Shown here piece after piece: positions 53,001 through 64,000 of a stretch of 64,000 nucleotides of DNA. The notes beneath the pieces were generated by a model. The model had not been told where the DNA came from. It was given only the letters and a program-made list of their open reading frames with translations, and searched no databases. A program made the position numbers and the translations under genes. Source of the stretch: Acidobacteriota bacterium (lineage in GTDB: Bacteria; Acidobacteriota; Blastocatellia; UBA7656); assembly GCA_038040445.1 (NCBI GenBank), contig JBBPIG010000004.1, forward strand, positions 1 to 64,000, in the 5' to 3' direction. The stretch's first letter is position 1. Each line of letters opens with the position of its first letter.

Positions 53001-54443
53001 ATGCGAAAAACGACATGCGCCTTCGTCTTGCTTCTCGCGACCTGGCCCCAAATGGCCGCGCCTCAATCAAGCGACACGATGTCTTCACGGTTAGTTGGCG
53101 AAGTACTCACGAGCGGTCAACAGTTGAAATACCTCTCGATGCTCAGCGATGAGATCGGCAGCCGCCTGACGGGTTCACCTGGCGCGCGCCGGGCCGAAGA
53201 AGCAATGGAAGCCGAAATGAAGCGGCTCGGACTGGCGAACGTACATCGCGAGGCGTTCACAGTTGCCGTGTCCTGGGAGCGCGGCTCGGCCGAGGCGCGG
53301 CTTGTTTCTCACTCGAACCGCCCGCTCACGGTCGCTTCGTACACGTGGACGCCGGGAACCGGCGGGGCTATCGAGGGGGAAGTCGTCGACGTCGGGGCCG
53401 GCCGTCCGGAAGACGTCGAGCGAGTGCGAGCGCGCTTGCGAGGGCGGGTCGCGTTTGCGATTCCAGCGGGCGAGACGCTCGACGCGGTCATCTACAACTT
53501 CTATCGCACGCCGCTGCTTGCGCGTGAATTAAGAGATGCAGGTGCTATCGCCTTGCTGATCGCTTCGGACAAGCAACACGCAATGCTGTACACAGCGCCC
53601 GTCGATTTCAACGCTCGCGTTGCGGCGCTCCCGACTCTCTCCCTTGCGCGCGAAGACGTGGGCTTGCTTCAGCGTTTGCTTGCTTCCGGTCAGAAGCCGC
53701 GCATTGCTCTGGACGTGCGCAACAAGCTTGGTCCGGCCTTTGAATCAACCAATGTCGTCGGCGAGATCATCGGGCGCGAGCGCCCGAACGAGATAGTTTT
53801 GCTCGGCGCGCACCTCGACTCAAACGATCTCGGCCCCGGCGCGCTCGACAACGCAGCGGGTTCGGCAGCGGTATTGGAAACGGCTCGCGCGATCAAATCG
53901 CTTGGGGTAGCTCCGCGGCGAACCATCCGCTTCGTTCTGTTCACCGGCGAGGAGGAAGGAATGCTCGGCTCGAACGCCTACGTGGCTCGGCATCGAGACG
54001 AGATGGATAGCACGGTCGCGGCTTTGATAATGGACGTCGGAGCGGGAAGGCCTGTTGGATGGTTTTCGATGGGACGAACAGATCTCGACGAGCAGATTCG
54101 AGAGTTGATGAAGCCGCTCGCGCCCTTCGGCGTGTCTACGATCGAGCACGGCGCCTTCGCCGCCACTGACAACGCCGCCTTCATGGCTGAGGGCGTCCCG
54201 AACCTCATCCTGCTTCAGGACGAGTCGGTATACTTCACCGTGCATCACACCGTCGCCGACACCTTTGATAAGGCAGACCCGCGTGACTTTGCGACGTGTG
54301 TTGCTACGGTAGCCGCCAGCACGTTCGGCATAGCCGATCGCGTGAATCGTTTCGGACGCCGGCTGACTTCCGAGGAGGTGAGGAAGATGGCGGCGGAATC
54401 AAAAGTGGATGAACAGTGGCGCGCGGCAGGAATATGGAAGTGA
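53001..54443 (+). CDS. Secreted M28-family zinc aminopeptidase
   Basis: A 480-residue protein, start ATG 53001 behind GGAGGATCACTCG. Signal peptide to about 19 (WPQMAAPQ). A PA-domain-like insert covers about 90-190 (GRPEDVERVRARLRGRVAFA). The M28 site is GAHLDSNDLGPGALDNAAG (His and Asp ligands), FTGEEEGMLGSNAY (Glu-Glu pair) and MDVGAGRP, with the last ligand in HTVADTFDK. It should clip amino acids from peptide N-termini outside the cell. The plus-strand transcript ends in a GAAGGCA repeat shared with the convergent propeller gene. Confidence 0.93.
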   Translation: MRKTTCAFVLLLATWPQMAAPQSSDTMSSRLVGEVLTSGQQLKYLSMLSDEIGSRLTGSPGARRAEEAMEAEMKRLGLANVHREAFTVAVSWERGSAEARLVSHSNRPLTVASYTWTPGTGGAIEGEVVDVGAGRPEDVERVRARLRGRVAFAIPAGETLDAVIYNFYRTPLLARELRDAGAIALLIASDKQHAMLYTAPVDFNARVAALPTLSLAREDVGLLQRLLASGQKPRIALDVRNKLGPAFESTNVVGEIIGRERPNEIVLLGAHLDSNDLGPGALDNAAGSAAVLETARAIKSLGVAPRRTIRFVLFTGEEEGMLGSNAYVARHRDEMDSTVAALIMDVGAGRPVGWFSMGRTDLDEQIRELMKPLAPFGVSTIEHGAFAATDNAAFMAEGVPNLILLQDESVYFTVHHTVADTFDKADPRDFATCVATVAASTFGIADRVNRFGRRLTSEEVRKMAAESKVDEQWRAAGIWK

Positions 54444-54445
54444 GG

Positions 54446-54533
54446 CGAGAAGGCAGAAGGCAGAAGGCAGAAGGCAGAGACGCGACATCTGCCTTCTGAC
54501 TTCTGCCTTCCGCCTTCTGCGTTCTGCCTTCTG
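54446..54533. repeat. GAAGGCA repeat hairpin between convergent genes
   Basis: Four GAAGGCA-type copies (about 54447-54480) face their complementary TGCCTTC/TTCTGCC copies (54489-54533) around a short spacer, giving a stem of some 30 bp with few mismatches. It lies between the two convergent stops (54443 and 54536), so it probably ends both transcripts. The 7-bp motif may belong to a dispersed repeat family. Confidence 0.75.
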
Positions 54534-54535
54534 TC

Positions 54536-56650
54536 CTACCTGATGTAAAACATTCCCGACTGTCCAAACACCGAGTCGTTTGAAGAGTCTGTCAGCCGCA
54601 CGAGCACAGTCTCAGACCTTGGTTTCTTGGCTTTGACGCGAAGCGTACCCAAGCTTGAATCGACGTCCTCGGCCAATACCTGCCACGTACTTCCGCCGTC
54701 ACGCGAGATGCTGACGTCGAGCTTGTTCACGGCTGCGCTCGCGGACCAGCTAATTCTGTACTTTTCACCAGGCGTCCATTGCTCGCCGGCGCTTGGCGAG
54801 TTAACCGCAATCGATGCGGAGGCCGGCGGTTGAGGGCCCACGTTTGGAAGAGAGAACGCATAAACACTGTTATCTATCGATCCGATGAATACGCTCGCTG
54901 CTGAGATCGACACCCCACCCAACATTTGGCTGTGCTGCGGGGTGTTCCAGATTTCGCTCCCGGTCGAAGCGTCAAAAGCGCGAAGCCTTCCGTCAGCGCC
55001 CCCGACGAACACCGCGCCTCCGGCCACTGCTGCCGCTCCTATCACAGGAAGCGATAGCGGAGTGTCCCAAACTATCCGTCCGTCTCGTTGATCGAGCGCT
55101 ACAACTTTACCGGTGGCGACTCTGACGGTCGCGCCAAAAAAGATCTTGCCGTAGGCTGTGGCCGGCGACGAGATGCTGCCGCCTCGTGAGTCGCCGTCGC
55201 TCACCACGGTATCCCAAATCAACTCTCCGGTCGCCCGATGGAGCCCGTAGCAGTGTCCGTCCTTGGATGGGATCGCCAGCATCGGACGACCGTCGATGTC
55301 GAACAAGACCGGCGATGCGCCGAAGTCGAGATTGTTCAGGTCGGCGCGCAGCTTCTTGAACTCCCATACCAGTGCTCCGGTGTCCGCGTTGAGCGCTATT
55401 ACCGCGGACGAATGAGTATCGGCGCCGGTGCAGAAGTTGCCCGTGCCTACGTATATCATCCGCCGCCCGGGGTCTACGGTGGCCGACGACCAGACCGCCC
55501 CGCCCTTGCTTCCGTCGGGCGCCGTCGCAAAATTCCAGAGAACGCGCCCGTCGCTCGCGTCCACACAGACCAGTCTGCCGGTAATGCATGGGTTCACGCA
55601 GTGGCTGGCTAAGCCTATGTATATCTTTCCGTCAAACACCAGGGGTGAACCATAGATGTGAAAAGCCTGGGTGGGATCTGCAAGCTGGGTCCGCCAGATT
55701 GCTTGCCCGTTCGCTGCATTCACAGCGTGAAGCTGCGCCAGACCGTTGCCGAAATACAACTTGCCACCCGAGAGCGCAGCCGTGCCATCGATCCCGTAGG
55801 TGTCCGCGCAGGGATCTATGCGTATAGTGCCCGCGTTGTAGCTCCAGAGTACGGCTCCGTCGCTCTCGCGCAACGCGTACATGTTGCCGTCCCACGAGCC
55901 TACATAAACAACACCACCCGACACGAGAGGCGTACCGGTAACCCAGTCGCCCGTTGGAAACGACCATGACTGTGTCAGAGTCCCGGCGTTGGCGGCGCCG
56001 ACCGCCGACGTTTCCGAAAACGCCGAATGTGCTGAGTCATGCTGATAGGATGTCCACTCGGCTGACGTGCTGACCGCCAGCGCTCCGATGACCGGGTTGT
56101 CGATTCTGCCGCCGACCGTCAGAAAAGACGCTGCGGCAAATAGCGGGTAGCTCGGAGCTTTCGAGCTCGTATGAAAAAGCCCGCCGTTTTTGTAGTACCT
56201 CACCACGTTCGCTTGTACTGCTATGCGAAACACATCGCCTATACGGTAGGAAGTCTCTCCTCCGTAGGCGTTGTTTTCGCGGATCTCAGCGAAGCCAAGT
56301 TCGGTGAGCTTGATGGCGAAGTCTATCTCTGAAAACCCGGTGCCGATGGCTGCGTGTGTAAGCCCGCAGAATAAGACCTTGTTTGAGTCGCCGGCGGCAA
56401 ATTCGAAAAGGGCATCGCCTGATGTCACGATCTGCTGCGATCTCGCTCCGGCATCCGCGGAATCGCTGCGGCCCGCGGTCTTCTGAAGACTGTTCCCGGC
56501 GATCGTGCAGTTCGTCGTGTTGATCCAGATGACGTTTTGCGGCACGCCGGCGCCCACCTGTCCAATTGACGCGGGCGCAAAACAAAGTGAGAGGAGGGGG
56601 ATGGCAATAACAAGGTATTGGGCTGCTCTAATTGGCATAAGGGGGTACAT
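54536..56650 (-). CDS. Secreted PQQ-like beta-propeller protein with lectin-like N-terminal domain
   Basis: A 704-residue protein. Start ATG 56650 is uncertain (56638 also possible; ribosome sites are poor). Signal peptide to about 30. About 33-195 is a lectin-like jelly roll seen in Acidobacteria-type proteins (SEIDFAIKLTELGFAEIREN, GDVFRIAVQANVVRYYKNGGL). About 200-600 is a PQQ-binding-like propeller of repeats such as YVGSWDGNMYALRESDGAVLW, YVGTGNF, IPSKDGHCYGL and FVGGADGRLRAFDASTG. No heme or PQQ ligands were recognised, so it is probably a binding or scaffold protein. The tail (about 615-704) is an Ig-like domain (SPSAGEQWTPGEKYRISW). Confidence 0.83.
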   Translation of the reverse strand: MYPLMPIRAAQYLVIAIPLLSLCFAPASIGQVGAGVPQNVIWINTTNCTIAGNSLQKTAGRSDSADAGARSQQIVTSGDALFEFAAGDSNKVLFCGLTHAAIGTGFSEIDFAIKLTELGFAEIRENNAYGGETSYRIGDVFRIAVQANVVRYYKNGGLFHTSSKAPSYPLFAAASFLTVGGRIDNPVIGALAVSTSAEWTSYQHDSAHSAFSETSAVGAANAGTLTQSWSFPTGDWVTGTPLVSGGVVYVGSWDGNMYALRESDGAVLWSYNAGTIRIDPCADTYGIDGTAALSGGKLYFGNGLAQLHAVNAANGQAIWRTQLADPTQAFHIYGSPLVFDGKIYIGLASHCVNPCITGRLVCVDASDGRVLWNFATAPDGSKGGAVWSSATVDPGRRMIYVGTGNFCTGADTHSSAVIALNADTGALVWEFKKLRADLNNLDFGASPVLFDIDGRPMLAIPSKDGHCYGLHRATGELIWDTVVSDGDSRGGSISSPATAYGKIFFGATVRVATGKVVALDQRDGRIVWDTPLSLPVIGAAAVAGGAVFVGGADGRLRAFDASTGSEIWNTPQHSQMLGGVSISAASVFIGSIDNSVYAFSLPNVGPQPPASASIAVNSPSAGEQWTPGEKYRISWSASAAVNKLDVSISRDGGSTWQVLAEDVDSSLGTLRVKAKKPRSETVLVRLTDSSNDSVFGQSGMFYIR

Positions 56651-58341: not shown

Positions 58342-60843
58342 ATGGATAAAGAACTGTCAGCCAACACCAATCTCTCGCATTACCGCATCGTCTCCAAAAT
58401 CGGCGCGGGCGGGATGGGAGAGGTTTATTTGGCTGAGGACCTGAAACTCGGCCGCCGGGTGGCCCTCAAAGTCTTGACTCACGAGCTGACAAAGAACCCG
58501 GAACACTTGCAGCGTTTTGAACGAGAAGCGCGTGCCGCTTCGGCACTCAATCATCCAAACATTTTGACGGTTTATGAAATCGGTGAGTCAGCAGGCGCGC
58601 ACTTCATTGCGACCGAGTTTATTGAGGGCGAGTCGTTGCGCCAGCGCATCAGGCGCGGCCCATTGGAATTGCCCGAAGTTCTGGACATAGGCATCCAGAT
58701 CGCCTCGGCTCTTGCGGCAGCGCATGAAGCGGGAATCGTGCATCGCGACATCAAGCCGGAAAACATCATGGTGCGCAAAGACCATCTGTTGAAAGTCCTG
58801 GACTTTGGTTTGGCCAAACTGGTCAAGCAGGAAACGCGCGAACTCGACAAGGAAGCGGTTACGCGGGCGCTGCTCAAAACGACTCCCGGCACCGTCATGG
58901 GAACGACCATCTACATGTCGCCTGAGCAGGCGCGCGGTCGCGACGTGGACGAGCGCACAGACATCTGGAGCCTGGGCGTTGTGCTTTATCAACTGGTGAC
59001 TGGAAGCGTGCCGTTTGCCGGCGACACGATGAGTGACGTCATTGCCTCGATACTGAAAACAGAGCCGCCGCCGCTGGTCCATGAAGCGGAGTCGGTGCCC
59101 CGCGAGCTGGAACACATAGTCAGCAAGGCGCTGCGCAAGAACCGCGAAGATCGCTACCAACACATCAAGGATCTGTTGATTGATCTGAAAGACTGCAAAC
59201 AAGAGTTGGAGTTTCTGTCAAAGCTGGGAGGATCCCTCCCCCCAGAGCAGGCCGCCAAGCAACCATCTTGGCTGACTGCCCGGGGTGCCGCTGTTGAGAC
59301 GAGCGGCGTAACCGGCCTCCACACAACTTCGAGCGCCGAGTACATCGTCAATGAGATTAAGCGCCACAAGCTCAGTGCGACGACCGCTCTCGTTGTTTTG
59401 ATTGGTCTGGTAACCCTTGGATCACTTGCCTCCTCGCGCTATTTTGCCGGCAGCGACAATACCGGCATCGATTCTCTTGCGGTCTTACCCTTCGCTAACG
59501 ACACTGGCGACTCGGAAATGGAGTATCTATCCGATGGCCTTAGCGAAAGCTTGATCAACAATCTCTCGCAGTTGCCGCGGTTGAAAGTGATCGCCCGAAG
59601 TTCTGCTTTCAGATACAAAGGCAAAGACGCCAACGCCGAGGAAGTGGCCCGCGCGTTAGGCGTGAAGAGCATCCTGACCGGAAGAGTCTTGCAGCACGGC
59701 GATAACCTGCAAATCAGCGTCGAGTTAATGGATGCCCGGGATAAGACGCAGGTGTGGGGCGCCCAATACAATCGCCGAGCGACTGATCTGCTGGCCGTTC
59801 AGCAGGAGATCGCCCAGGAAATCTCGCGCAACTTGCGGCTCAAGCTTTCAAGCGCTGAGCAAAGCCGCGTCGGGAATCTGCACACCTCAAACGCCGAAGC
59901 CTATGAGCTCTACCTCAAAGGCCGCTTCTACTGGAACAAACGCACGGGCGAGGCGCTGAAGAAAAGTGTCGACTATTTCAATCAAGCCATAGAAAAAGAT
60001 CCGAGTTATGCTCTGGCGTATGTTGGGCTCGCCGATGCCTACGTCGTGATCCCGTTCTATTCCGTGGGTTCGCCACAGGATTCTTTCCCGAAGGCCAAAG
60101 CGGCCGCCCGGCGCGCGCTGGAGATCGACGATACCCTCGCCGAAGCGCACACCGCGTTGGCCGCCGCGCTGATAGATTACGATTGGAATTTGACCGAATC
60201 AAACAGAGAATTTGAACGAGCCATCGAGCTCAATCCCAACTACGCGAACGCTCATCACTGGTACGCCAGAGAAAACCTGACGATTATGGGGCAATTCGAC
60301 AAAGCTCTCGCAGAGATGCGGCGGGCGCAGGAGCTTGATCCGCTGTCGTTGATAATTAATGCGAACTTTGGCAAGGCCTACTTCAACGCGCGCCGTTACG
60401 ACGAGGCCATCCAGCAACTGCGTAAGACGGTTGAGATCGATCAGGGCTTTTTCGTGGCGCATCATTATTTGGGCTCGGCCTATGCGATGAAGGGCGCTTT
60501 TTCAGAGGCGCTCTCCGAATATCAGAAGGCTCACCAACTGAACGATGATCCCCACGTGGTGGCCCTGACGGGACGTCTCTATGCCGTGTCTGGCAAAAGA
60601 GCGGAAGCGCTGAAAACGCTCGCGCAACTGAAGTCTCTTGCCCGGCAGCGCTATGTTGCTGATTACAGCGTAGCCCTGATCTACGCGGGACTCGGCGAGA
60701 AGGACCAGGCGTTCGAACTGCTTGAAAAAAGTTACCGAGAGCATACAGTGGATATGCTCACTCTTTACTATGATCCGCTCATCGACAACCTCCGATCAGA
60801 TCCGCGCTTCGCCGGCCTCCTGCGACGCGTGGGATTGCAGTGA
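58342..60843 (+). CDS. Membrane Ser/Thr protein kinase with FlgO-like and TPR domains
   Basis: An 833-residue protein, start ATG 58342; the ribosome site is weak. Residues about 10-285 are a eukaryotic-type kinase: IGAGGMGEVYLAED (Gly loop), VALKVL (Lys), HRDIKPENIM (catalytic loop), LDFGLAKL (DFG) and YMSPEQARG. Residues 345-365 (ATTALVVLIGLVTLGSL) form one membrane helix. About 380-500 is the domain beginning SLAVLPFANDTGDSEMEYLSDG, shared with adenylate-cyclase-type TPR proteins. From about 515 on are TPR motifs (EAYELYLKGRFYWNKR, GLADAYVVIPFY). The kinase core is complete, so it should phosphorylate targets; they are unknown. It stands alone, with the minus-strand cluster beginning 70 bp later. 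Confidence 0.93.
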   Translation: MDKELSANTNLSHYRIVSKIGAGGMGEVYLAEDLKLGRRVALKVLTHELTKNPEHLQRFEREARAASALNHPNILTVYEIGESAGAHFIATEFIEGESLRQRIRRGPLELPEVLDIGIQIASALAAAHEAGIVHRDIKPENIMVRKDHLLKVLDFGLAKLVKQETRELDKEAVTRALLKTTPGTVMGTTIYMSPEQARGRDVDERTDIWSLGVVLYQLVTGSVPFAGDTMSDVIASILKTEPPPLVHEAESVPRELEHIVSKALRKNREDRYQHIKDLLIDLKDCKQELEFLSKLGGSLPPEQAAKQPSWLTARGAAVETSGVTGLHTTSSAEYIVNEIKRHKLSATTALVVLIGLVTLGSLASSRYFAGSDNTGIDSLAVLPFANDTGDSEMEYLSDGLSESLINNLSQLPRLKVIARSSAFRYKGKDANAEEVARALGVKSILTGRVLQHGDNLQISVELMDARDKTQVWGAQYNRRATDLLAVQQEIAQEISRNLRLKLSSAEQSRVGNLHTSNAEAYELYLKGRFYWNKRTGEALKKSVDYFNQAIEKDPSYALAYVGLADAYVVIPFYSVGSPQDSFPKAKAAARRALEIDDTLAEAHTALAAALIDYDWNLTESNREFERAIELNPNYANAHHWYARENLTIMGQFDKALAEMRRAQELDPLSLIINANFGKAYFNARRYDEAIQQLRKTVEIDQGFFVAHHYLGSAYAMKGAFSEALSEYQKAHQLNDDPHVVALTGRLYAVSGKRAEALKTLAQLKSLARQRYVADYSVALIYAGLGEKDQAFELLEKSYREHTVDMLTLYYDPLIDNLRSDPRFAGLLRRVGLQ

Positions 60844-60915: not shown

Positions 60916-61278
60916 CTACTTCAGCGGGATGGCGGGCAATCGCTTCAGCGTCCGGCTGGCAGGGTCGACCGTTATTCCGACCGATTCAAGCGCAGTGACG
61001 CCGAGTAGCGGTTCCACGGTGTCCGGACCAAAGATGACTCTCCCCGCCGTGACTTCACCCATGAAAGTAATCTCAACCAGCCCGAATGGACACTCCTGAA
61101 GCGTGCCGTCCGCCAATTCGTAGACCATCTTACCGGCAGGCTTCACCCCTATCCTGGTTAACTCGGCGCCAGGCGCGAGCGAGTCCGTAGCGCCAGTATC
61201 GACGAGGAACTCGGCTTCATAAGTTCCTTTCTCAGATCCGAAGCCCTTCAACGTCACGGTTACGTGGGTAAGTCCCAT
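60916..61278 (-). CDS. Retropepsin-like aspartic protease (clan AA)
   Basis: A 120-residue protein, start ATG 61278 (MGLTHVTVTL) behind GGAGAG; the longer frame to 61335 lacks a site. The DTG signature is FLVDTGATDS (Asp27 of DTG), and DGTLQECPFGLV and VIFGPDTVEPLLGVTALES match the flap and second half of clan AA single-domain proteins. A dimer would supply the second Asp, as in retropepsins. No signal peptide is seen. It is the last gene of the minus-strand run at the right end, 62 bases after the nucleotidyltransferase stop; whether it belongs to the same transcript is open. Confidence 0.85.
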   Translation of the reverse strand: MGLTHVTVTLKGFGSEKGTYEAEFLVDTGATDSLAPGAELTRIGVKPAGKMVYELADGTLQECPFGLVEITFMGEVTAGRVIFGPDTVEPLLGVTALESVGITVDPASRTLKRLPAIPLK

Positions 61279-61339
61279 ATCAGACTCTCCGTTACGATCA
61301 CAATGATCCTGGTCCAAACAATTCAGACGTGTCAAGCAA

Positions 61340-62449
61340 TCACCGCCCTTCTCGCAGCGCCCTCGGCAACCGCGCGATGAACATTGCGGTTCGGCCTACG
61401 CATTCACCGATCTGGAAAGGCAGCCTTGGAAGCTCATTCAAACGCCCGCCCGTGTACACCGTCGCTTCGATCGGGTTCGGCCACCGGCGTTTGAGGTCCG
61501 CAAGCACGCCTCGTGGGTGTCGAATGTACTTAGCCATCGGCGCGTGATGAGTCACCGGTGCTTGCGACATGCTGTAAGGCGTTTCCCATTGCTTGAGCAC
61601 GTCTGAAATCAGCCACTGCGGAAGTTTCATCGCATTACTAGCCAAGGGCGTGCCGCCAACTTCCGCTCCCAGTAACCTATGCGCCAGTCCTATCGCGCAA
61701 GTGACCCAGTTCGCCCGCGCTTTGTCTTTTCCCAGACAAATATCCCAGTCGAAGTTCTCAGCCCGCGATTCCAAACTTGCCGCAATGTCGCACAGCCAAA
61801 GCGGTCGATGCACGCTATGCCGAAGCATGTGCACGCATAGAAGACGCAAGTGGTCTTCAGGCGCGAGCACCCTGACCGCAACATCGTCAAGCTCGACGAT
61901 CCTCGACCGCGCGTACAGATCCTCGATTGGCCTTTTGTCCAAACTGCCTGCGCCTTCGTGCAGGTCAACCCAATGAAACACCTTGACGCTCCGCAGCGTC
62001 TCCCTGGCAAGCGCGTGCTGCTCGCGTCGTACGACTAGATCGATGTCGCCATAAGGGCGCAACCCTGCCTCCGGGTAGAGCCGCGCAACCGCCCAGCCTT
62101 TGACAAGCAGCGGCTCCACCCCCGCTGAATGCAGCACGCTCAGTACTTGTTTGATTGAATGTTCGCGAAGCTTGCTGCCGATCGAGTGCAGTCGGTAGGC
62201 TTTCTGAAGTGTAAGACCGGCCGGCGAAGACCCCAGCTCTGTGTGGCGAATATTCCACCATGCAATCGCGCCCGACATCGATCCGACTAGTTGAGGGATT
62301 ATTTCGGCAAGGCTGGACGCGCAACACTCAGGCGCTTGCGGCGAGCGCCTCCAACTACCGGCAAGCGCCGTCGCAATCACATTTCCAATTTGGTGGGTTG
62401 ACTTGGACGCGGCCACGGCACAACAGGTCCTTGGTGCGGAAGACTGCAC
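61340..62449 (-). CDS. Nucleotidyltransferase-fold protein (NTP_transf_5 type)
   Basis: A 369-residue protein. The start GTG 62449 is uncertain; its ribosome site is poor and the true start may lie downstream, perhaps near residue 57. The core is LLVKGWAVARLYPEAGLRPYGDIDLVV: GDIDLVV supplies the Asp pair (135 and 137) of the nucleotidyltransferase fold. HMLRHSVHRPLWLCDIAA is the conserved region after it. Homologs (PF14907-type) are common beside PqqD-like proteins in peptide-modification and exosortase-linked clusters. Their chemistry is not known. The stop of the PqqD-like gene lies 15 bases upstream, so it is co-transcribed with it. Confidence 0.85.
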   Translation of the reverse strand: MQSSAPRTCCAVAASKSTHQIGNVIATALAGSWRRSPQAPECCASSLAEIIPQLVGSMSGAIAWWNIRHTELGSSPAGLTLQKAYRLHSIGSKLREHSIKQVLSVLHSAGVEPLLVKGWAVARLYPEAGLRPYGDIDLVVRREQHALARETLRSVKVFHWVDLHEGAGSLDKRPIEDLYARSRIVELDDVAVRVLAPEDHLRLLCVHMLRHSVHRPLWLCDIAASLESRAENFDWDICLGKDKARANWVTCAIGLAHRLLGAEVGGTPLASNAMKLPQWLISDVLKQWETPYSMSQAPVTHHAPMAKYIRHPRGVLADLKRRWPNPIEATVYTGGRLNELPRLPFQIGECVGRTAMFIARLPRALREGR

Positions 62450-62464
62450 GCCCCTATGCGCGCT

Positions 62465-62953
62465 TTAGTTGCAGAGACCGGCAATGCAAATCCCGTTACA
62501 GCACGAACTGTTTGGGCCGGTTGGGCTGCACCCAGCGTTAGGCGGCAAACACGATGCTGCTTCAACGGCGCTTGGCGCCATTATTGAAGTGATTAAAGGC
62601 AACGCTGCTGCGGCTGCGATCCCCGCCCTGTTGATCAACTCCCTGCGCGTCAGCTTTCGGGAGTCCCGCCGCTCGAACGTCTTATCGATAAGGTGTGCTC
62701 GCCCAAGTTGCTCGAGCGCAAACCAAACGGCGTCGTCATTGATCCCAAGCGCAGATGCGACGTTAACAGCACGGGTTATTTCGGGTACTGCGGTCCTCCC
62801 GTCGCACTGTCTCCACACAAGCCCCGCCGTCAGATTGAGGCAGTGGGCCTTATGCCGCTCTAGATCGTAAACGAGCAACTCTCCCGCCACTTCGCAGGTA
62901 ACCAGCCCCTTCTCGCGCGCCCGGGGCAGAGCTCGCTGTGCTGCGTTTTCCAT
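62465..62953 (-). CDS. PqqD-like domain fused to Tat-like segment and cystine-knot-like peptide
   Basis: A 162-residue protein, start ATG 62953 after AAGGTTAACTC. Residues about 15-95 are a PqqD-like fold (LLVYDLERHKAHCLNLTAG, VWRQCDGRTAVPEI, ALEQLGRAHLID), the type that binds leader peptides in RiPP pathways. From 102 comes TRRELINRAG (Arg103-Arg104) with a hydrophobic run (110-128), a Tat-like signal; VEA-AS at 130-134 is a plausible signal-peptidase site. The last 30 residues have six cysteines (135, 142, 151, 152, 156, 161) spaced C-x6-C-x8-CC-x3-C-x4-C, the inhibitor-cystine-knot pattern. So one chain appears to join recognition domain, export signal and mini-peptide. Neighbours are a nucleotidyltransferase and a C25 peptidase. 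Confidence 0.8.
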   Translation of the reverse strand: MENAAQRALPRAREKGLVTCEVAGELLVYDLERHKAHCLNLTAGLVWRQCDGRTAVPEITRAVNVASALGINDDAVWFALEQLGRAHLIDKTFERRDSRKLTRRELINRAGIAAAAALPLITSIMAPSAVEAASCLPPNAGCSPTGPNSSCCNGICIAGLCN

Positions 62954-63013
62954 GAGTTAACCTTCCCGTGGGGATTAGGACGCCTCGAACCTTGGGAACA
63001 TCGCTCGTCTCTT

Positions 63014-64000
63014 CTATTTCAACTTCATTGAGGGATCGCCGAACAAAATCCACGTGCGTCTTATGTCGGAGTCAGTCACCGACGACTTCGCTTTCACGGT
63101 CGCTTCGCCGAGCGTAAGCGCTTGTGCGCCGGACTTCTGAGAGCCCGGCTGGAACAGCAATTTGTAGAACTGCTGATTCATTGCCGCCTGACCATTCGGC
63201 TCGGTGAACCCGCTCGAAGCCCACACCGCTATCGCTCCACCCCGGGGAGCGTTCAGCAGGGCAGCCGCCAACGTGTTTAACTCAGGGCGCTGAAACTCTC
63301 CGTTCAAACACGTCATCGCGACGAACAGCGGGTATCGCCCGGTGTTTGTTAGAGCCAATGCGTCGGCCGCCGTGAGCAGGTTGCCCCTCCATACGCTAGG
63401 CGAACCGTGCCCGACATAGTTCACGATCTTCTGCCCGCTAGCGAGGCCGTCTAATAACTGTTGCCTGGCAGCCCCCGTCCCTATCTGCCCGCGATTGATC
63501 TGTTGAACAGTGATCGCCGCCGGGAACAACGGCGCCAACTTATTGTTTGCCGCCTCGAAATTGAATCCAAGGTTTTCGTCGGCCACTAGCAGAGCTGACT
63601 TCTGCGGCGTTGTTGCTTCATACGACACAAGCTTCGCCACCGTGCTTGCCGCCTCTTCCGGCGTGTGGGCGGGCAACCGGCCAACCGCCATCTCAGCTAT
63701 GCCGTCAAGATTGAAGTCCGCAAACCAGTCATCGCTCGCCGTCTCCATGAATTGCGTATCTACCATTCGCGTCGGTACCAGGTCATACCCGCCAAGCCCG
63801 TTGTAGTTCTTTGGATCGTAGCTCGCGCTTCCGGCAAGCAACACGTACCTCGGCGGTCTAGCCCAGTTGCTCCTCGCGTACGACAGAAAGTCCTTCACCG
63901 CCTGCGAGCGCTTGTTGCCAAAGTTGAACTCGTCGTAAATGTCCTGGACGTCGACCATCGCCACCTTCAACCCCTGCGATTGTCTGAGCGCCGCGAGTTG
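63014..64000 (-). CDS. C25 (gingipain-like) cysteine peptidase, 5' end outside window
   Basis: At least 328 residues; the frame is open to the window edge (codons continue past 64000 as QLAALRQSQGLKV), so the N-terminus, including any signal and propeptide, is missing. The catalytic His is in NYVGHGSP and Cys in AMTCLNGE, the C25 dyad. Further family text: VLLAGSASYDPKNYNG, VPTRMVDTQF and ASDDWFADFN before them, and ASSGFTEPNGQ and LGEATVKAK after, ending in WILFGDPSMKLK. These peptidases are secreted and cut after Arg or Lys; specificity here is unknown. It lies 60 bases upstream of the PqqD-like gene on the same strand and may be its partner in processing. Confidence 0.9.
   Translation of the reverse strand, partial: QLAALRQSQGLKVAMVDVQDIYDEFNFGNKRSQAVKDFLSYARSNWARPPRYVLLAGSASYDPKNYNGLGGYDLVPTRMVDTQFMETASDDWFADFNLDGIAEMAVGRLPAHTPEEAASTVAKLVSYEATTPQKSALLVADENLGFNFEAANNKLAPLFPAAITVQQINRGQIGTGAARQQLLDGLASGQKIVNYVGHGSPSVWRGNLLTAADALALTNTGRYPLFVAMTCLNGEFQRPELNTLAAALLNAPRGGAIAVWASSGFTEPNGQAAMNQQFYKLLFQPGSQKSGAQALTLGEATVKAKSSVTDSDIRRTWILFGDPSMKLK

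Follow-up and report, generated by a model that had tools for sequence, protein, structure and literature searches.

What does a bacterium make from a gene that joins, in one chain, a peptide recognition domain, an export signal and a short cysteine-rich tail? The question is raised by a 162 aa open reading frame (62465..62953, minus strand) near the end of the window, the 64,000 nt of Acidobacteriota contig JBBPIG010000004.1 that were analyzed. The favored answer, to which a probability of about 60% is given, is a self-guided precursor of a secreted disulfide-rich peptide: the PqqD-like part, acting as the recognition element (RRE) of a ribosomally synthesized and post-translationally modified peptide (RiPP), would dock enzymes that tailor the attached tail, the chain would leave through the twin-arginine translocation (Tat) system, and the cysteines would pair outside.

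Conserved front and cysteine-rich tail

Related genomes, 98 in all, were searched at the protein level, the check that the first-pass annotation of the window had proposed, and PqqD fusions of this type turned up in 62 of them, with recurring neighbors; conservation on this scale rules out chance or a frame artifact as the source of the reading frame. About 90 neighborhoods were fetched, 113 full members were read and 118 family genes were placed in context. Two genomes, G076 and G090, hold at least 37 copies each, and at L100, L101 and L111 two to four copies stand in tandem. The genome of the window has three, the other two (72402 on the same contig, C4, and C22:56423) each lying a few kb from another gene for an NTP_transf_5 nucleotidyltransferase. 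In a wider sample of the phylum strong matches were obtained in 26/297 genomes, 20 of these in the same class, and relatives are also present on metagenome-assembly contigs titled Acidobacteria and Gemmatimonadetes; a plasmid search returned a single weak match, in Gemmatirosa kalamazoonensis.

The architecture first described for the window gene, a PqqD-like domain, a Tat-like signal and a six-cysteine tail, is borne out. The PqqD-like part spans approximately residues 10-90 (62684..62926, minus strand), as delimited by conservation in a 36-row alignment, and contains a PF05402 match at residues 26-63 that scores 23.9 bits, just over the gathering score of 23.4, thus supplying the recognition element expected of a RiPP precursor, although an RRE is needed by some RiPP classes only. 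An AF2 model built from a six-row alignment gives this part two strands followed by helices, with a predicted local distance difference test (pLDDT) score of ~80 over residues 31-90. In relatives the same part matches TIGR03859 with E values of 1e-5 to 1e-6, below that model's cut-off.

Behind this domain lies the twin-arginine signal TRRELINRAGIAAAAALPLITSIMAPSAVEA (residues 102-132; 62558..62650, minus strand), with a likely cleavage site at VEA-AS. The twin arginine is invariant in 113/113 full members, and it is usually preceded by Ser or Thr (Ser in 77) and followed by any residue, two mostly hydrophobic residues at +2 and +3, and mostly Lys or Arg at +4, a context that fits the Tat consensus SRRxFLK. 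The S/T-RR motif, the hydrophobic region and the A-x-A-like site of a Tat substrate are all present, the window protein aligns over residues 101-132 with the Tat model TIGR01409 (E 0.028, below the cut-off of that model), and TatC is encoded in the same genome. Export of the family through Tat, the route originally suggested for the window peptide, is therefore strongly supported at the level of sequence.

The predicted released peptide (62468..62557, minus strand) holds a 28 aa cysteine tail that starts at 62551 and is spaced exactly C-x6-C-x8-CC-x3-C-x4-C. Across the family the spacing varies and the number of cysteines is almost always even: counted from 20 residues past the RR motif, it is even in 111/113 tails (4 to 18 cysteines) and in 99/101 distinct spacing patterns, where a rougher tail cut had given 91/104 before this fixed-point recount. 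For the other amino acids of these tails an even number is seen in 43-54% of cases, and in the two multi-copy genomes 35/35 tails have even cysteines. Homologs lacking conserved cysteines, which would have told against the initial interpretation, are thus not what the family shows. Both odd-count tails look decayed or atypical; one, from G063, is listed with a terminal TGA and has an additional cysteine at the signal junction, and the other carries the aberrant ending CLQWFLLR. Cysteine makes up 16% of tail residues and lysine 0.7%.

Even cysteine counts and the conserved RR together argue that the tails are most likely exported and their cysteines paired as disulfides after export. Disulfides are the simplest reading of the parity, because thioether links to other residues need none. 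That family members are exported, disulfide-paired peptides carried on a conserved RRE-Tat front is accordingly the part of the proposal held with high confidence from sequence comparison. The same parity opens the way to a plainer explanation, in which the product is a secreted peptide with disulfides only, the RRE is a chaperone or quality-control handle for Tat competence, and the neighboring enzymes act on the RRE, on the signal or elsewhere. Disulfides alone would account for the even-cysteine rule, and the choice between this explanation and a tailored tail falls to the enzymes considered below.

The knottin spacing C-C-CC-C-C is shared by 13 members including that of the window. A profile made from nine knottin-type tails and run against the PDB gave inhibitor cystine knot (ICK) peptides as its top matches (best E 7e-4), and the window tail, modeled from its sequence alone (pLDDT 66), also matched ICK peptides in Foldseek but with E above 1. 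A knot fold for this subgroup may thus be proposed on the strength of its cysteine spacing.

While the front is fixed, the tail is not. Over close pairs the tail has a pooled proportion of nonsynonymous differences (pN) of 0.295, against 0.084 for the PqqD part, whereas the synonymous proportion (pS) is similar (0.72 vs 0.64), and the family accordingly combines a conserved leader with a variable core, as RiPPs do. Positive selection on the tail was not demonstrated, as pooled pN/pS is <1 over close pairs, and for this reason its divergence is read as relaxed or diversifying change. Multiplied hypervariable tails on a conserved front suggest that the peptides have diversified to meet targets that themselves change, for example competitors, proteases or partners.

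Two further proteins depart from the usual tail. A PqqD-RR protein in G110 (L132 7109-7801) has a cysteine-free Gly/Asp/Thr repeat tail (GDTGGGDTG) that runs past the fetched stretch, and the RRE-Tat front may therefore bear quite different cores. In G232 (L133 2655-3062) a tailless member ends at the predicted cleavage site, beside an HprK-like kinase gene.

Partner enzymes and proposed modification of the tail

The gene directly downstream of the window precursor (61340..62449, minus strand), noted at the outset only as a co-linear nucleotidyltransferase, is a member of NTP_transf_5 (PF14907, E 4e-25). An NTP_transf_5 gene directly downstream and a gene for an HprK-like P-loop kinase directly upstream are the commonest conserved neighbors of the family. 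The former is immediately 3' of 41/118 family copies, so that neighbors which never co-occur, the other outcome that would have weakened the first interpretation, were not encountered; the exact trio of HprK-like kinase, precursor and NTP_transf_5 accounts for 32 of the 118 placed genes, in 32 genomes. Both enzymes retain recognizable motifs, with a Walker A of relaxed form in 56/56 kinases and DxD in 56/56 NTP_transf_5 proteins, where KG is also conserved. A different partner is seen in G076, in which a subfamily of 2-oxoglutarate (2OG)-Fe(II) oxygenases (PF13640) has six copies genome-wide, 6/6 directly downstream of family members; five are in the loci that were read, and the sixth (C8:578925-579542) is 83 nt downstream of the precursor C8:579625. 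Candidate modification enzymes of three kinds are hence linked to the precursor genes.

In the proposed mechanism the PqqD/RRE part would dock such cytoplasmic tailoring enzymes, namely NTP_transf_5 in the window, usually with an HprK-like kinase, and a 2OG-Fe(II) oxygenase for other paralogs, and these would modify the covalently attached tail in the cytoplasm. The twin-arginine signal would then route the precursor through Tat. After cleavage by signal peptidase at VEA|AS, an A-x-A-like site, disulfides would form between the cysteines once these are out of the cytoplasm; in the window subgroup the product would be a knottin-like peptide. Recruitment of tail-modifying enzymes by the RRE before export is held with moderate confidence. 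Modification itself is suggested by analogy with lasso peptides, which are tailored by HprK and nucleotidyltransferase enzymes; docking at the RRE, the position of cleavage, the knot topology and the biological role are likewise inferred.

The plainer explanation introduced above, a peptide with disulfides only, draws on two features of these neighborhoods. Many copies have no adjacent enzyme, and a gene for a fusion of MauE with an AhpC/TSA redoxin (L098 8225-9808, contig C22) precedes by 59 nt the third precursor of the window's own genome, whose 80-residue tail resembles a tail in G041, where the operon also holds a MauE-redoxin gene; a MauE-redoxin module beside two members fits oxidative folding. 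Trios in 32 genomes and the pairing of all six 2OG oxygenases are nevertheless hard to explain without tailoring, and the plainer explanation is considered unlikely, though the likeliest of the alternatives.

A second alternative keeps the enzymes on the tail and changes the purpose of the product: the kinase would phosphorylate a tail Ser or Thr, the nucleotidyltransferase would add a sugar, and the exported peptide would anchor or cap an exopolysaccharide. There is a precedent in pseudomycoidin, where a nucleotidyltransferase adds hexose to phospho-Ser (PMC8498205). A gene for a WecA-like sugar-phosphate transferase is near the cassette in 29 genomes, followed by glycosyltransferases and epimerases, and the only close kinase homolog in the window's own genome is in a polysaccharide export locus on contig C6. 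This glycan context is mostly that of one syntenic locus, shared by >20 genomes along with TsaB and other housekeeping neighbors, and is absent at most paralogs; the window copy also has no adjoining glycan gene. A surface-glycan carrier is accordingly regarded as improbable.

Several observations weigh against the favored reading of a self-guided, tailored precursor. For the window protein the RRE assignment depends on a PF05402 match barely over its cut-off, the full-length AF2 model is weak (pLDDT 58) and its fold search gave no significant match, and the fold search for the knottin tail yielded only E values above 1. It is unusual for a Tat signal to lie ~100 residues into the protein. Many G076 and G090 copies are distant from any kinase or nucleotidyltransferase gene, so that the enzymes would have to act on them in trans, and the kinase of the window's own genome is on another contig, C6. 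On action in trans G090 offers a hint: at a TsaB-linked locus (L139 7238-9024) that in related genomes holds all three genes, it has the kinase-nucleotidyltransferase pair without a precursor, which suggests that in this genome, with its dispersed copies, the enzymes act in trans.

The window locus and its C25 peptidase

Upstream of the window precursor by ~60 bases, as initially reported, is a gene for a caspase-like Peptidase_C25 (63014..64000, minus strand; E 1e-80). Only its C-terminal part, which holds the C25 domain, is in the window; the gene extends to ~67387 of the contig and the protein is 1457 aa long. In 21 genomes 7 C25 genes were observed within 3 kb of a family member against 0.113 expected (P ~4e-11). 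The sole C25 gene of the window's own genome, the sole one of G031 and both of G016 adjoin family genes, as does at least one of the three in G007 and of the two each in G001 and G053. This adjacency, far over chance, invites a third alternative, in which the knottin-like peptide is either an inhibitor of the neighboring peptidase or a substrate that it matures. Several C25 copies retain His and Cys consistent with a catalytic dyad, and the tail spacing resembles that of plant trypsin-inhibitor knottins. In contrast, most members have no C25 nearby, and G004 has 17 C25 genes of which none is near its family copies, which argues that only part of the family has C25 as an accessory. A protease pair cannot account for the family as a whole and is the least probable of the alternatives, though C25 may act on the peptide where the two genes adjoin.

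The origin of the window arrangement can be approached through the sister species G001, in which the order (L071) is C25, HprK-like kinase, precursor, NTP_transf_5 and a gene for a beta-propeller (PQQ-repeat-like) secreted protein. The window homolog of the latter (54536..56650, minus strand), used as a marker of orthology with no functional part assigned, is 73% identical to its G001 counterpart, C25 is 46% and NTP_transf_5 52% identical, and the kinase on contig C6 is 56% identical to that of G001. From this shared order and identity, the window locus is probably the same cassette, from which the kinase has been lost and into which other genes have been inserted.

The remaining neighbors are less clearly connected. 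A clan AA aspartic protease (60916..61335, minus strand), assigned by model matches as retropepsin-like and at first thought a possible part of the system, is judged to be outside it, as the window alone has such a gene among 94 loci with a member (motif scan, phmmer). In this respect the first-pass annotation did not hold, while its architecture, partner genes and Tat route did; its proposals that the peptide is modified in the cytoplasm, leaves in a folded state and is perhaps processed by C25 stay conjectural. It had also missed the HprK-like kinase, which lies outside the window, as well as the paralogs, the parity of the cysteines and the other enzymes that can replace the usual partners. 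A Ser/Thr kinase with C-terminal repeats resembling tetratricopeptide repeats is encoded at 58342-60843 (plus strand) and has homologs in G076 and G090 in the vicinity of several arrays of the family; the simple abundance of such kinases in these genomes may explain this proximity. A pair of short tandem arrays with 7-nt units, AGGCAGA in one and the complementary TCTGCCT in the other, face each other at 54443-54533, between two convergent genes. Just beyond the window, at ~67.7-69.4 kb of the contig (L004 9691-11402), three CCACCAACGCAGTTGGTGG copies flank a 279-aa transposase-like reading frame (L004 9853-10692), and the element sits between the two precursor-nucleotidyltransferase copies of this contig; it looks like an element of repetitive extragenic palindromes with their associated transposase (REP/RAYT).

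Relation to known systems

RRE-precursor fusions, Tat-exported RiPPs and bacterial knottins like this family were not found described in open papers or in Pfam and NCBIfam, which is weak evidence of absence as the subscription literature was mostly outside the scope of the search; this is apparently a large bacterial family so far undescribed. More tentatively, and somewhat short of an even chance, it may represent an undescribed class of secreted peptide, with precursors that carry their own RRE, cytoplasmic phospho- or nucleotidyl-transfer or 2OG-dependent hydroxylation, exit through Tat, venom-like mini-proteins and dozens of hypervariable paralogs per genome. If true, the precursor design, in which a single chain holds the recognition domain, the export signal and the product and leaves by Tat, would be unmatched among the described RRE-dependent peptides found, and bacteria would diversify disulfide-rich mini-proteins on a fixed front as venomous animals do. 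The rule of an RRE, an RR and even cysteines offers a way to find many more members, and the tail is a candidate substrate, open to testing, for NTP_transf_5 and the HprK-related kinases, two families whose use is uncertain.

With the ICK peptides of spiders, cone snails and plants, the window subgroup shares the C-C-CC-C-C spacing; the family differs in being bacterial and in its RRE-Tat front, and the likeness is one of cysteine spacing, with no significant fold match, and may be convergent. The authors of RRE-Finder reported that 21% of PF05402 proteins exceed a single RRE in length yet have no other Pfam domain (PMC12710340), and a precursor family such as this would be hidden in that bin. 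The fusions described there also join an RRE to another segment, but the segment is an enzyme, whereas here it is an exported core peptide.

Closer to the partner enzymes are HPr-rel-A (TIGR04352/TIGR04353) and SynChlorMet (TIGR04248/TIGR04249). The kinase of the window family scores against HprK_rel_A (E 3e-14) and its PqqD part against PqqD_rel_X and ScmD, all far below the curated cut-offs; the PqqD proteins of both systems are stand-alone peptide chaperones according to the model descriptions, whereas that of the window family is fused to its peptide. The nearest parallel is with the lasso peptide clusters of paeninodin and pseudomycoidin, which have the same trio of PqqD-type RRE, HprK homolog and nucleotidyltransferase, the kinase phosphorylating a Ser to which the nucleotidyltransferase then adds hexose (PMC8498205). 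Neither an asparagine-synthetase-type cyclase nor a B2 protease was recognized among the conserved neighbor clusters of the window family, though no model search was aimed at either. The window family differs from the lasso clusters in its precursor-fused RRE, its twin-arginine export and its cysteine-rich core that does not end in Ser; because the tails as a rule have no terminal Ser, the target residue here would differ from that of the lasso peptides.
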